A stretch of DNA of 64,000 nucleotides from an uncultured Granulosicoccaceae bacterium (lineage in GTDB: Bacteria; Pseudomonadota; Gammaproteobacteria; Granulosicoccales; Granulosicoccaceae): contig CALLMF010000031.1 in assembly GCA_938006335.1 (NCBI GenBank), positions 1 to 64,000 of the forward strand, given 5' to 3'. Both the position numbers and the translations under genes were made by a program. The first letter of the stretch is position 1. Each line of letters starts with the position of its first letter. Under the pieces are notes generated by a model, which saw nothing but the letters and a program-made list of their open reading frames with translations, searched no databases and had not been told where the DNA came from. Positions 47,896 to 55,301 of the stretch are shown here, piece by piece.

Positions 47896-49752
47896 TCAGG
47901 CCAGCGACAAACGCTCACGCATGATGCCGTCCAGCTGCTCTGATGTGAGCGGTTTTCTGAACACATCAATCCCCATCTCGGTGATGTCGCGCATTCGTTC
48001 CGGGGATTCGCTTCCGGTGACGACAATCACGCTCTCATTACCTCGCTGATCGGCCACCTGAACCGCAATGTCCAGACCGCGCTCATCGGCACCGAGCATG
48101 TCGTCGATAATCGCAAAGTCGATATTGATGCCAATGTTCTCGAGCACCCCGATGGCATCCTGCTTGTTGTCGCTGAGAAGTGGCTCACCTCCCCGGCTGA
48201 CCACATGACGACTCAGGGCGTCGAGCACTCCGGGTTCGTCATCAACGATGAGGATCTTATGGCCTTTGAGGTCAACGGGCTGGACTGCCGGCGCCCCTTG
48301 TTTACCGATCGGCCTGTGGTCTTCGACCCTGGGTACAGATCTCGAATCGGACAGAGGCAATATCAGTCGAAAACACGAGCCTTCACCCGGTGTGGACTCA
48401 AGCTCTACCCTGGCGCCGAGTATTTCTGCAAGTCGTCGAACGATCGCAAGTCCAAGTCCGGTGCCTTCACCGGTTCTGCGGGCCGGATTGTTGAGCTGCG
48501 CAAAGTCATCGAAGATCAGCTTCTGGTTGGCCTCGTCGATACCGATGCCCGTATCAACCACCTCGATGATGGCGTTGTTTCCGGTGGCGTCCGGACGGAC
48601 ATGGACCTGGACAGAACCTGCTTCTGTAAACCGCACGGCGTTGCTGAGTAGATTACCAATCAGCCGTTCAAGCAGCATCGTGTCGACCTGAGCGTGGAGT
48701 GTTTCGGCATGACACGCCAGTACAAGCCCCTTGGCATCGGCTTGCGGGCGCACGGTTTCGATGGACGATTTCAGATAGTCACCAAGCTCCACCAATACGG
48801 GTTTGGGCTGGAAACCACCAGCATCCATGCTGGACAGATCAAGTATGGCGTCGAACTGGGCACGAAGCCTCGCTGCTGCCATCGCCGCCTTGTCCACAAG
48901 ATCAACGGTGTCGGGTGACGTTACCGAGAGCTGCAAGGCGTCTATATACAAGGACAGTGCATGAAGCGGCTGGCGCAGATCGTGGCTGGCTGCCGCAAGA
49001 AACTCGCTCTTGGAATGACTGGCTGCACGCGCGCTGTTCAGAGACGACTCCACCAACTGCTGACTACTTTGAAGTTGCTGATTCTGCTCGGCGTTCTCCA
49101 GACGCATGCGTATGGAATCGCGAAAAAATGCGCTGTTGCGCCTGGCAAAGCCAAGCTCCAGCAACAAGATGGCAAGGAGTAACAGGGCAATGGCAGGTTC
49201 ATCCCGATTACCGAGTCCAGCAAAAAACACCATGCCTTGCCCGAGGTTTACAAACAGCAGAATGGGCAACAGCCGGATCTGGGTCATCGAGTTGATCGTG
49301 CTACCAATCGAGTACATCGCACTCAGCAAGGTAATCGCAAACACGATTCTTTCATCACCTGGAATACACACCAGCCAGTACCCGGTCCCGATGATCAGGG
49401 GCATTGCAACACCGGTCAGAAAGAGTATCCCCTCGTTATGCATCAATTCAGACGCATCCGCGGCCTTGAGCCGGCGTTCTACACGTACACAGACCCACGC
49501 TCTGACAATCGTTGCTGCCACGATAGCAGCCAACCAAGCAGCGAATATCGCGGTGTCAGTGCGTGTCTTGAACGATATGAAGTAGACAGTCGCAACAATC
49601 ACGACAAGCACGAGCGACTGTCGGCTCTGGAATGTGCGCACTTCCTGGGAGCAGCGCATCACCTCCCGCTCGAGGGAGTCACTCGTGAGACGATCCACCG
49701 TCAGTCCGGTAAGCCGCTCGTTGAGTGCGTTCCAACGTTCAACGAGATTCAT
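47896..49752 (-). CDS. Hybrid sensor histidine kinase with receiver domain
   Basis: A 618-residue membrane kinase. About six hydrophobic helices lie between residues 45 and 200 (no large periplasmic domain), then a coiled stretch (about 215-245), a HisKA domain with the phospho-acceptor His257 in AAASHDLRQP, and an HATPase domain with N-box NLLSNAVRF and G-boxes DTGIGI and GTGLGLAIV. A C-terminal receiver has acidic DDE (504-506) and probable phospho-Asp550. The ATG overlaps the stop of the 1850-residue fusion gene as ATGA, so the kinase is coupled to it. A partner DNA-binding regulator is not in the window. Confidence 0.92.
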   Translation of the reverse strand: MNLVERWNALNERLTGLTVDRLTSDSLEREVMRCSQEVRTFQSRQSLVLVVIVATVYFISFKTRTDTAIFAAWLAAIVAATIVRAWVCVRVERRLKAADASELMHNEGILFLTGVAMPLIIGTGYWLVCIPGDERIVFAITLLSAMYSIGSTINSMTQIRLLPILLFVNLGQGMVFFAGLGNRDEPAIALLLLAILLLELGFARRNSAFFRDSIRMRLENAEQNQQLQSSQQLVESSLNSARAASHSKSEFLAAASHDLRQPLHALSLYIDALQLSVTSPDTVDLVDKAAMAAARLRAQFDAILDLSSMDAGGFQPKPVLVELGDYLKSSIETVRPQADAKGLVLACHAETLHAQVDTMLLERLIGNLLSNAVRFTEAGSVQVHVRPDATGNNAIIEVVDTGIGIDEANQKLIFDDFAQLNNPARRTGEGTGLGLAIVRRLAEILGARVELESTPGEGSCFRLILPLSDSRSVPRVEDHRPIGKQGAPAVQPVDLKGHKILIVDDEPGVLDALSRHVVSRGGEPLLSDNKQDAIGVLENIGINIDFAIIDDMLGADERGLDIAVQVADQRGNESVIVVTGSESPERMRDITEMGIDVFRKPLTSEQLDGIMRERLSLA

Positions 49753-52700
49753 GCCGGGAGAACCCCCAGCAAGTCGACAGTGGCGCCAGACCGGTGCAGC
49801 AATGCTCCGCTGGCGTCATAGCTACCGAGGGTCATTCGGGCATTCATGGAATCAAGATCGAGCCGTGTGAACTGCTGATTGGCATCGGAGAGTAAATGTT
49901 GTTGCAGGGTCAAGGTCACATCCGAGCCGCGTATCGGCACCGTGACGGTTCGTCCCCAATCGATGCTTTGAGCGGCGACATTCGCAAACGGCAGCGGTGC
50001 GAACAAGCCGGAGGCCACCACTTGATGCATCTGCACCGAACGCCCCGACCTTTCCAGTTCGATGTGAGCATGACACGAGAGATGCGGATCACCCGACAGC
50101 CAGACCACCCGAGTGACTGCCGGCAGCTGGACAATGGCATCAAACAGCGTCTCGAGAAATCCGGAATACGCGAGCAATCCATCGACATGCTGCTGCAAGG
50201 ATGGATGTGCCACAAGGTCTCGCGACACGGGCATGAATGCTGAGCCACTCGCAACGAACAACACCGTTTCATCGTCTTTCGTTGCCTGCAGCCAGTCGCA
50301 GAACGCGTCCAGCTGTGAGCCACCAAGCAAAGCCGTCGCCTGAGCCCGGTCAATGTCCTGGCGTTCAAAACGCGTATCGAGACAGAACAAGCGATGCCCG
50401 CGACACCGCACTTCTCCCCACAGGCGCGGCGTTTCATCAATCCTTGCGCCCATGCCGACATGCCGATGAGACTGAAAATTGGCCGCCTCCCTGCGAGCCA
50501 CCTCGAAGAGCTCGCGTGCCGAGCAATCCGCGTTGACGGCAAGTCCGGCATAGTCATCGTAGAGAGCATGATCATCGGCAACGAAGCGTGTCGGCACTCG
50601 TGACATCACGCGGCGCATGGCTGATCCCCGAAAGGCCGTGCGGTAGCGTCCGCGGAACCTTTCGTAGAGGGCTATCGGATCCGCAAGATCCGCGGTCGCG
50701 TCTGCATAGATCTGATCACCGAGCAGTAGCAACATGTCAATCCCGGCGTCTTCGCCACTGTGCGCGTTGGCGAAGATATGGCGATCGATACCTTCAAATA
50801 TGGTGTCGCTGAGCTCTCGCTCGAAGGTGGAACCCGGGTGCAGACACGACCCGAGCCCAAGACAGAGATCAGGCTCGCCGTCATGCGGACCTTCACCGAA
50901 GCGGCGTCGCCACCACGGGAGATCGCCGGTCGGCGTGAGCGAGCTATTGGCAGCCGTCGACAGATCGGGTTGTGCGGCGTGTACGACCCGTGCTTGCGGC
51001 AGGCAAGGCAACAACGTGGGGTGTGTGATGCGATTCAGCCAGAATCGACCTCCACGGGGAGACACTGGATACGGACGAGTAAGCGACTCGGAAGGTACGA
51101 CACGCAGTGCACCGTCCTGCGTTCCAGCATTCAGTTCGATCGCTTCCGGAAGATGCGTGCTGTAGTCGTCCGTTTCGTTCCAGACCAACAGATCGGTGTC
51201 GTTGTCGAGCGAAAGCACCGGGCCACATAGCGGGGTAAGACTCGGATCGAGACGCGTATGGGGCCTGTCTTCCGGCTTGATCCGCCGATCAGCGTAGCGC
51301 GTGGCAAACGTGGTGAAGCGATCATGCTCACGACCGGCTGACGCCTCGGCCTCGGCTGCCTTGAAAAAGTGCAGCAAGGCCGGACCCGCGGAGCGAGTCG
51401 CATGCTTGCCGAAAATCATGTCCATGTGACCGTAGTCAGCAAAGGTCTCAAGCCACACGCCATGCCGTGCGTGCTCTGGTGTGTCGTCTCCAGGCAGCGC
51501 GTCCCCCGAATCTGCTCGCCGAAAACGCATCAACAGCTCGGCAGACAGCCTCGACGATTCAATATCAAACACCCTGTTGACATCGCCGTGAAGAAACAAG
51601 GTAGGAAACGTGAAGTACTTTGCGAGCGCTTGTTCGTTCACGTATTCACTGCTTCCCTCGTGCGCCACCAGGCGGTTGCGCGTGACACTGAAGTAGACCT
51701 GTTGAAGCACGGCAATCGGCACAGGGCCGATCATACCGGCAAAGGCCCGCTTCAGCCTCCGCGACACATTCCGGTGGTTCCACTGCTGACCCCAGAAAAT
51801 CGTGTAGCGAACGTATACGGAGCGGGCAAAGCCTCCGCCACGGCTATCACGCCAATGCTTGCTCCAGGGCCATTCAACGCGCTCCTTTCGGTCGATCGTT
51901 GAGGTCGCCAGGCGATCGAAAATGATTTCGGTCCAATGAGGTCGTGAATGCAGGCGTGGCTCTACGGTATCGATCAGCTCCAGGTCCTTGACCAGTGCCC
52001 AACCATTCTCGCGCGCTCGATTGTCCGCCGATGCGTACAACCACGGCGTCACCGCATGCGGCACGAGAGACGCCAACATGGATCGTTGTGGCGCATCCGG
52101 CTGCTGCAACTTGCCGGCTAGTGCGGCGATGGACACCGCGCCCGCACCGATGCAGTGTGAAAACACATGCACCTGCCGCGCGAGACCAGTAGATGCTCCG
52201 CTATTGATGACGTCAAACACCTTGCGCACGGCCCAGGGCAGATCGATCAAGGCGATATCGTCCCAGGTGTGTGCCGGGTCAACGGACAGGCGTGAGTTGG
52301 CACTGGTGCGATGGTCGACAATCCACACCTGAAAACCGTTGGCAAGAAAGTACTGCGCGTAGTTTTCACTCAGAAGATCAGTCCAGAAGATCTCACTGCT
52401 GTGTGCGAGTCCGTGCACCAGTAGCAGAGCTGGCACTTCGGTGTTGACCAACCCGGCAGGTCGGTACTGAATCAGCCGAGTGAGTTCATCCGGGCTGGTG
52501 TAGGTCGTGACCGGCTCGCTACTGTGTTCGACACCTTCCCTGATGTAGCAAAGCCTGTCAGGCGGCAGGTTCATTCTCTCCCGATCAAAGCCGTCGAGAT
52601 CCTGCATGCGCTCGTAGTCGTGCGCACCAAAGCTCCAGAAATGCGTCTGCAGCAGCATGCGCGCCATCAGTGACATCGAACGCACGATAGCCACGAGCGC

Positions 52701-55301
52701 GTGCGGTGTGTCCTCTGCCTGCCGGATCTGTAGCGGTGCCGGCCCCTTCGTGATCCCGATCAGATCGATCGAGAATTCCGTGTGCATTGAAACGACACCT
52801 GATCGGCGCCAGTGCATCGGCAGCTGGAACAAGGTGTTCCAGACGGTCTCGCCGCGTGCCCGGAATTCAAGAGACTTCCGCCCTTCCAGCAACAAGTCTT
52901 CATGTTCCAGTCGATACACGAGATGGCGGTAGTCGCTATGCAATCGCGCCACACGCACGTAGCCTGCCGCGCGTTTGAGGAAGCCTCCTGAACTCGACGA
53001 TGTCGTGCTTTCCGACGGACGCCTGCGTAGCAATCCGAGGAGTGCAGCCCCCACCGCAAAGGGTCGATACCGGACATACCGGACACCCGCACTAAGCATA
53101 CGGGCCCAGCTCCTGAGTCCGCTCGCCCGATCTTCCTTGCCGAGCGTCACACCGCCCTGTAGATGCATCAGAGCCTCGTTCGGGAACTCGACATCGGCAC
53201 TGGTGTGCAACAAGGGATCCGTGAGTTCGTACAGCTCGGCCCGCGCAGGCAATTCGCGCCCGGGGTCGTTCTTCCAGCGATCCAGCGACGTGGTCCCGGA
53301 AAATTCAAAACAGATGTCGAGCGCGAGGGCTTGCACATCCTTGTTCACGGGTTTACCGATGAGCCGCTGAAGCGCGAGACGCTGCTGTTCGCGGGTGGCG
53401 GCATCGGTGTCCAGCTTCCAGAACAAGCGCTCGCTGAAGTCCGCCACGACGGGCGAGGCGGTGATCGCCGGCGGCTCGGGTATGTCCGGGAGCTTCTTGA
53501 ACCGTGGTTCGAGCAACGCGAAGGGGGCCGACGTCGGCATGTCGCGACCCGCCATGCGACTGCCCAGGCAGTAGGCAAGACTCGAGATGGTCAACATGGG
53601 ATTCGTGCCGACTGCCCCGGGGACCGCAGCCCCATCAAGCACGTACAGATTCTCGTAGACGTCGGTGCTGTCGAGCTGCGCGGGCGCAGAATGGAACACC
53701 TGCCCGTAGGTGTTCACAACTCCGGTCGCGGCACTGCTCCCCATGTTGCATCCGCCCAGTGGATGTACGGTGGTGACGCTACCTTCAAGGGCATCTGCTC
53801 CCTCGAAGATGTCGACAAAATCATCCGGCAAGGGTTTTCGAACCGGATTCGCCTGATAGCGCCCTCCATCCAGACCATCGAACGCACGTTGCTTGAGCGA
53901 CGTGAACGCAGCGTGCAAGCGGGAGTAGAAGCCGTGCTTGCCACTGTCATGCGGCCAGTAGGGTAAGACCTGACCGCCGGCGCCGTCGGCACGAAGCGTG
54001 CCCTGATTGCCATCAAAGCCCATGCTCAACAGCACTTGCGTGTGTTCGGCGAGCGCGTCGTCGCTGACCAGTTGATCGTTGTCGGGGTTGTCCTTCTGCC
54101 AGGCCGTCGGCTCGCTGGCCACAAAGCGTCTCAGGAACTCCAGTGAGGTTGTCAGTTCGCTGAACAATCCAACGATAGGGTGCGGTATGGCACCGTCCTC
54201 AAGGGTCAGACGTCCCGCACCTTCCGCACCATCGGTAACGGCTCGACCCACGATGGTCGGCCCGGGTCGGCTGGTGGCGCCGATGTCAGGAGTGCCAGCC
54301 ATCGCGTTCACAGGACTGCGCTGCCCGATGGACAGATGCAAGCCATCGCCGTTGGTCGAGAAGCTCTTGCCGAGGCGTGGAGACAACTGCAACGATCGAG
54401 AGCGCATCAGAATCTCGGTGCTGCCGATGGCGCCTGCGCATAACACGACTCGCCGCGCGGCGATGACAAAGGTCGTGCTCGCGTCCCGAGAAAGAGTTCC
54501 GTGAACCTGCCAACCCTCTTCGGATTCTTGCAGCGACAGTACGCGCGCACCGGTGTGCAGCGAGACGCCACGTTGATGCGCCAGTGGCCAGGCGTTCAGG
54601 TTAAGTGATTGCTTCGCACCCGAATGGCAACCGATCACACAGTTGCCACACGCATTGCAGGGACCGTGATCGACGCTATGCGGGCCTGGACCGTCCACGT
54701 TGATGGACAAGGGTGGCCGCTCGGTACGTGCACCAAACGCGCTGGCCGTTCGCGCCAGGGCATCAAACTTCCGTATGGGAATATCAGCCGGATACGGAAC
54801 TGCCCCCAACAAGGCCTCGATCTTGGTCTGGCATGCGGCAAAGCGCTTGGCCCAGGGCGCGCCGTCCGGCTGTGGCCACGTGTCCAGCACGCCGTCCAGC
54901 GGAGGTACCACCACCGACGCATTGACCAGCGAGGTTCCGCCCAGGCCGTTGCCAGAAATACTGACGATGCCGTCACCGCTACGGACATCCCACAGGGCGG
55001 TATCGTCACTAACAGCCGCTGGTGCAACCGCGCCATTGCTGGCATTTGTAAATCGTACATTGGACGCAACGTCACCCAGGCTGCGCGGCATGTCCTGAGG
55101 CAGAAATTCGTCGCCACGCTCCAGGACCGCGATCTCACCGGGCTGGGCAATGTTGTCTTCGGTCAGTGCGAGCGCTGCCATCGCAGCACCGTAGCCAGAA
55201 CCGATGATCAGCGTGTCGAAAGCCGGCGGATTGACCGCGTCGTCGCCGCCCGCGAGCAACGCCTCAAAGGGACGTGAGAGCCAAAACGTCACGAGCGACA
55301 A
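49749..55301 (-). CDS. Giant fusion: GMC oxidoreductase + alpha/beta hydrolase + PhoD-like phosphatase
   Basis: One open frame of 1850 residues. Residues 1-600 are a cholesterol-oxidase-like GMC enzyme: FAD motif GSGYGAA (34-40), a CX2CX2CX3C group (Cys215-225) before GAKQSLN, and HPLGGCNMG (513-521). Residues 620-900 form a linker domain I do not recognise. Residues 940-1320 are an alpha/beta hydrolase with oxyanion-side LLVHGLAH, nucleophile elbow S-H-Cys1050-I-G, probable acid Asp1246 and His1292. Residues 1475-1850 resemble PhoD metallophosphatases: GSC, GDQIYAD (1528-1534), DDH (1576-1578), and GDPHLSCHAH (1737-1746). The start is a TTG at 55301 (GTG 55292 is alternative). No signal peptide is clear. 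Sterol, lipid or phosphoester breakdown is a guess. Confidence 0.85.
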   Translation of the reverse strand: MSLVTFWLSRPFEALLAGGDDAVNPPAFDTLIIGSGYGAAMAALALTEDNIAQPGEIAVLERGDEFLPQDMPRSLGDVASNVRFTNASNGAVAPAAVSDDTALWDVRSGDGIVSISGNGLGGTSLVNASVVVPPLDGVLDTWPQPDGAPWAKRFAACQTKIEALLGAVPYPADIPIRKFDALARTASAFGARTERPPLSINVDGPGPHSVDHGPCNACGNCVIGCHSGAKQSLNLNAWPLAHQRGVSLHTGARVLSLQESEEGWQVHGTLSRDASTTFVIAARRVVLCAGAIGSTEILMRSRSLQLSPRLGKSFSTNGDGLHLSIGQRSPVNAMAGTPDIGATSRPGPTIVGRAVTDGAEGAGRLTLEDGAIPHPIVGLFSELTTSLEFLRRFVASEPTAWQKDNPDNDQLVSDDALAEHTQVLLSMGFDGNQGTLRADGAGGQVLPYWPHDSGKHGFYSRLHAAFTSLKQRAFDGLDGGRYQANPVRKPLPDDFVDIFEGADALEGSVTTVHPLGGCNMGSSAATGVVNTYGQVFHSAPAQLDSTDVYENLYVLDGAAVPGAVGTNPMLTISSLAYCLGSRMAGRDMPTSAPFALLEPRFKKLPDIPEPPAITASPVVADFSERLFWKLDTDAATREQQRLALQRLIGKPVNKDVQALALDICFEFSGTTSLDRWKNDPGRELPARAELYELTDPLLHTSADVEFPNEALMHLQGGVTLGKEDRASGLRSWARMLSAGVRYVRYRPFAVGAALLGLLRRRPSESTTSSSSGGFLKRAAGYVRVARLHSDYRHLVYRLEHEDLLLEGRKSLEFRARGETVWNTLFQLPMHWRRSGVVSMHTEFSIDLIGITKGPAPLQIRQAEDTPHALVAIVRSMSLMARMLLQTHFWSFGAHDYERMQDLDGFDRERMNLPPDRLCYIREGVEHSSEPVTTYTSPDELTRLIQYRPAGLVNTEVPALLLVHGLAHSSEIFWTDLLSENYAQYFLANGFQVWIVDHRTSANSRLSVDPAHTWDDIALIDLPWAVRKVFDVINSGASTGLARQVHVFSHCIGAGAVSIAALAGKLQQPDAPQRSMLASLVPHAVTPWLYASADNRARENGWALVKDLELIDTVEPRLHSRPHWTEIIFDRLATSTIDRKERVEWPWSKHWRDSRGGGFARSVYVRYTIFWGQQWNHRNVSRRLKRAFAGMIGPVPIAVLQQVYFSVTRNRLVAHEGSSEYVNEQALAKYFTFPTLFLHGDVNRVFDIESSRLSAELLMRFRRADSGDALPGDDTPEHARHGVWLETFADYGHMDMIFGKHATRSAGPALLHFFKAAEAEASAGREHDRFTTFATRYADRRIKPEDRPHTRLDPSLTPLCGPVLSLDNDTDLLVWNETDDYSTHLPEAIELNAGTQDGALRVVPSESLTRPYPVSPRGGRFWLNRITHPTLLPCLPQARVVHAAQPDLSTAANSSLTPTGDLPWWRRRFGEGPHDGEPDLCLGLGSCLHPGSTFERELSDTIFEGIDRHIFANAHSGEDAGIDMLLLLGDQIYADATADLADPIALYERFRGRYRTAFRGSAMRRVMSRVPTRFVADDHALYDDYAGLAVNADCSARELFEVARREAANFQSHRHVGMGARIDETPRLWGEVRCRGHRLFCLDTRFERQDIDRAQATALLGGSQLDAFCDWLQATKDDETVLFVASGSAFMPVSRDLVAHPSLQQHVDGLLAYSGFLETLFDAIVQLPAVTRVVWLSGDPHLSCHAHIELERSGRSVQMHQVVASGLFAPLPFANVAAQSIDWGRTVTVPIRGSDVTLTLQQHLLSDANQQFTRLDLDSMNARMTLGSYDASGALLHRSGATVDLLGVLPA

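Follow-up and report, generated by a model that had tools for sequence, protein, structure and literature searches.

Serine triads are nearly always completed by Asp or Glu, while cysteine triads may use Asn or no third residue at all (PMC9825947), and in the alpha/beta hydrolase fold the acid can relocate to the end of strand 6 (PMC11878206, PMC7034887). A few described alpha/beta hydrolases carry a Cys nucleophile. PHA synthase (PhaC) has a Cys at the nucleophile elbow, dienelactone hydrolase (DLH) likewise uses Cys (PMC11878206), and artificial cysteine lipases derived from CALB combine a lipase fold with a Cys nucleophile (PMC6642262), as is predicted for the enzyme described here. For DLH, PhaZ and PHA synthase, a 2024 survey of the superfamily gives the triad as Cys-Asp-His, and the section in which it treats variation of the active site contains no Cys-His-Asn type (PMC11878206). 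We describe a hydrolase module encoded in a 64,000-nucleotide stretch of DNA from an uncultured Granulosicoccaceae bacterium (the window). It is likely an acid-lipase-like alpha/beta hydrolase in which Ser-His-Asp has been replaced by Cys1050-His1292-Asn1242 and which would perform acyl-enzyme chemistry coupled to a GMC oxidoreductase.

Organization of the Fusion Gene

The gene occupies 49749..55301 of the minus strand, to which all further window coordinates of the gene and its parts also refer. It encodes an 1850-aa fusion protein in a reading frame without internal stop, with a TTG start as called mechanically, and the modules follow in the order GMC oxidoreductase, middle region, alpha/beta hydrolase and PhoD-like phosphatase. 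The GMC oxidoreductase module (residues ~25-590; 53532..55229; Pfam match at residues 112-576) is cholesterol-oxidase-like. Searches of NCBIfam and the PDB placed it closest to cholesterol oxidase, far under the equivalog cut-off, and both active-site motifs, HPLGG and NPxxT, are retained. The same module contains a CxxCxxCxxxC motif at residues 215-225 (54627-54659), which is kept in all relatives that are readable there. This motif resembles a 4Fe-4S cluster site, which could supply the GMC enzyme with a non-oxygen electron acceptor. The middle region (residues ~620-930; 52512..53444) has no Pfam match and is conserved across the larger fusions. The acid-lipase-like hydrolase module (residues ~930-1335; 51297..52514) matches PF00561 above the cut-off, with the best stretch at residues 957-1060, and the PhoD-like phosphatase module (residues ~1470-1830; 49812..50894) matches its Pfam family at residues 1520-1750.

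Distribution of the Hydrolase Family

The alignment of the hydrolase comprised 54 homologues, which form 36 clusters at 60% identity, have a median pairwise identity of 24% and belong to the Proteobacteria, Actinomycetota, Bacteroidota and Spirochaetota. Members were found in Leptospira, Persicobacter, Bernardetia, Azospirillum, Rhizobium, Ensifer, Rhodococcus, Pseudonocardia and Arthrobacter, and close relatives (40-62% identity over the hydrolase) in Granulosicoccaceae, Pseudohongiella and further gammaproteobacteria. The close relatives were sought with six peptide patterns, of which one included the Cys, so this set on its own is partly circular; the whole-genome and plasmid searches for members did not require the Cys. 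Scores of the class search fall from ~1e-98 to 1e-15 with the gap between them empty, and no mixed intermediates (Cys/Asp or Ser/Asn) were seen within the family. The hydrolases fall under no specific family of Pfam or NCBIfam, and a PDB sequence search returned no close member. In Gammaproteobacteria bacterium LSUCC0112 (L039:4431-9871) the fusion is divided between two reading frames, through a frameshift either of the gene itself or of the assembled sequence.

The Cysteine at the Nucleophile Elbow

The elbow of the hydrolase module reads V-F-S-H-C1050-I-G-A-G. An earlier note on this DNA had pointed out Cys1050 in the elbow S-H-C-I-G, and its codon (52152..52154) and residue numbers are correct. 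The whole 1850-aa protein contains a single G-x-S-x-G, GASTG at 1035, which precedes the elbow. Conservation of the Cys among homologues, by which the note had proposed to judge it, is high: Cys is present in 52 of the 53 aligned sequences with a residue in this column and in 35 of the 36 clusters, and since it is retained this widely, its presence in the window is not due to chance. The preceding His1049 (53/53) and the elbow Gly1052 (54/54) are invariant. The note's view that the module is not a plain serine lipase therefore stands, because a conserved Cys occupies the elbow. The one deviating sequence, L081, has Gly in place of the Cys. The same gene was found as L108:7306-8475, with His and Asn retained, and from its residues this family member is a candidate inactive or changed copy.

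Fold and Relation to Acid Lipases

A profile HMM of 33 diverse members matched human gastric lipase with an E-value of 9.6e-24 over positions 9-349 of 351. This alignment pairs the Cys with the Ser of G-H-S-Q-G, the Asn with the Asp of G-G-K-D-L-L and the His with the His of Y-N-H-L-D. We take these residues of gastric lipase to be Ser153, Asp324 and His353, which agrees with a numbering offset that stays at 8 along the chain. The match to Pfam PF04083 was weak and present in 5 of 20 members.

Two AlphaFold2 runs, each on a shallow alignment of 13 sequences, gave a mean pLDDT of 63.9 and a pTM of 0.59 for 751 residues, and a pLDDT of 72.5 and a pTM of 0.80 for the 416-residue hydrolase. Both models place Cys1050 on the elbow, as the earlier note had supposed, exactly where strand 1044-1049 meets the following helix. 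In the 416-residue model, Asn1242 lies three residues past strand 1234-1239 and His1292 five residues past strand 1282-1287. Judged by the secondary structure of the models, Cys, Asn and His occupy the canonical positions of the fold, and the module has the features of the alpha/beta hydrolase superfamily, with the nucleophile at a strand-helix elbow, the third residue past strand 7 and the His past the last strand. In Foldseek searches against the PDB, lysosomal and gastric lipase were the top hits of the longer model, and the shorter one retrieved a broad set of lipases with these two in the top ten. In overall sequence and fold the module agrees with the gastric/lysosomal acid lipases, but it lacks their Ser-His-Asp triad, as the corresponding columns hold Cys and Asn.

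The Third Triad Position

The triad base His1292 (51426..51428), already named as the catalytic His in the earlier note, is invariant (54/54). The acid named alongside it, Asp1246 (51564..51566), has to be given up, with D in only 26 of the 54 sequences and L in 19. The true acid column stands four residues before it, at Asn1242 (51576..51578), the third triad position, where gastric lipase has Asp and all 54 homologues have Asn. Asp stands in this column in three Ser hydrolases (L085, L087 and L088) from the margin of the searches for members. According to hhalign the same holds for the Cys-nucleophile PHA synthase L070, from which alone the acid column of PhaC was read because the C-terminal half of PhaC L071 was misaligned. 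A triad acid shifted to strand 6 is ruled out, as none of the 54 sequences has D or E at 1079-1086. Since Asn1242 is invariant, strand 6 offers no acid and both the Ser relatives and the PHA synthase keep Asp, the triad is predicted to be Cys-His-Asn.

The Cys-His pair might instead be completed by a carboxylate from elsewhere, either Asp1294 or Asp1246, with Asn1242 having a structural role only. Asp1294 (51420..51422), the Asp of the H-x-D motif, is invariant (54/54) and lies two residues past His1292, and acids can move to another strand in the alpha/beta hydrolase fold (PMC11878206). However, both Asp1294 and Asp1020, the other invariant acids, are also found in Ser-His-Asp acid lipases, which use the strand-7 Asp. 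Neither Asp1246 nor the strand-6 site provides a conserved acid, and the invariant Asn1242 sits exactly at the acid's place. We therefore regard a carboxylate from elsewhere as unlikely.

A non-catalytic module, which would bind an acyl group or lipid or whose Cys would have a redox or structural function, was also considered. L081 indicates that a copy can lose the elbow Cys, and the nearby GMC module carries the CxxCxxCxxxC motif. Against this, the elbow Gly and the Cys, His and Asn at the triad positions are co-conserved over very wide distances, including in stand-alone copies, and this joint conservation is therefore read as an active-site signature, which makes a non-catalytic role very improbable. 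The proposal in the earlier note of a PHA-synthase-like or DLH-like Cys-His-Asp enzyme (polymerase or acyltransferase) is hardly credible: the Cys does occupy the same elbow site, PHA synthase profiles do match weakly and hhalign pairs the family with PhaC L070 at a probability of 98.9%, but the profile match is far weaker than that to gastric lipase (E-value 1.5e-5, elbow half only), the acid column holds Asn instead of Asp, the window protein has no Pfam match to PhaC_N (2e-69 for the control PhaC L071), the DLH Pfam family matches neither this protein nor 20 homologues, and a true 660-aa PHA synthase is encoded elsewhere in the same genome. The absent domains, the Asn column and the weaker profile match rule out membership in PHA synthase or DLH.

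Gene Linkage of the Hydrolase

GMC, middle, hydrolase and PhoD modules are joined in one chain in the window and in L051, L053-L056, L099 (Ensifer) and L109. In L044-L050 and L110 the first three are fused and PhoD is an adjoining gene, and in L093-L096, L101, L111 and L112 GMC and hydrolase are fused and neither a middle nor a PhoD module is detectable. Separate hydrolases have a GMC gene close by in L098, L100, L103, L106 and L107; in the stretches examined of L097, L102, L104, L105 and L108 no GMC gene was seen near the hydrolase. The hydrolase is thus fused or gene-linked to a GMC oxidoreductase in most layouts and, since the GMC motifs are retained, we infer that it is tied to the oxidation of a lipid-like alcohol. 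Our literature search returned nothing relevant on a GMC/hydrolase fusion.

Some loci encode further proteins. The gene order in L107 is hydrolase, acetoacetate-decarboxylase-like, patatin-like and GMC, and this gene run (L107:6841-13720), like the similar one in L103, also encodes a 566-aa protein without Pfam match. In L111 (L111:7200-9137) a gene for a RoxA-like cytochrome c directly follows the GMC-hydrolase fusion, and this cytochrome is a possible electron partner.

Proposed Mechanism

The module is predicted to act as an esterase or acyltransferase, the latter being possible. Cys1050 would be the nucleophile, its thiol activated by His1292 as base, and the neutral Asn1242 would orient His1292, as in papain. 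The predicted substrate is a lipid ester or thioester, which the thiol would attack to form an S-acyl enzyme. From there the acyl group would pass to its predicted acceptor, which may be water, an alcohol or an amine. Catalysis by Cys-His-Asn is plausible because Cys triads can use Asn (PMC9825947). The hydrolase would work jointly with the fused or gene-linked GMC flavoenzyme, probably on a single substrate of lipid or sterol-like nature, and in the large fusion the PhoD-like phosphatase may also take part. For the family as a whole, we lean towards the view that it is a widespread, unnamed bacterial family with the acid-lipase fold and a natural Cys-His-Asn triad, in which both swaps were fixed together and which works in GMC-coupled acyl transfer.

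Comparison with Known Systems

The gastric and lysosomal acid lipases (human gastric lipase 1HLG, lysosomal acid lipase 6V7N) match the family over the full length of the profile and have the same fold, and they share with it the H-x-D motif, a helix D-x-P motif and the triad columns. Unlike these lipases, the family is bacterial, has Cys for Ser and Asn for Asp, and occurs in fusion or gene linkage with a GMC oxidoreductase. The acid column of PhaC holds Asp (L070) and the enzyme has a PhaC_N domain, both of which are absent here, and the triad of DLH is Cys-Asp-His, whereas the family has Asn. The residues Cys, His and Asn are shared with papain-type cysteine proteases (PMC6642262, PMC9825947), but the folds are unrelated and the likeness is one of residues only. 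The CALB cysteine variants are laboratory-made and described as Cys-His-Asp, whereas the present family is natural and carries Asn.

A Cys-His-Asn alpha/beta hydrolase would, from its sequence, be a variant new among the acid-lipase-like ones, relative to the main texts of a mostly open-access literature. The observation that Ser needs a carboxylate while Cys allows Asn (PMC9825947) could thereby be examined within one scaffold, and two residue swaps would suffice for such a test because both changes are fixed beside Ser/Asp lipases and Cys/Asp PHA synthases. In addition, a conserved and unannotated GMC-linked enzyme unit gains a concrete predicted chemistry.
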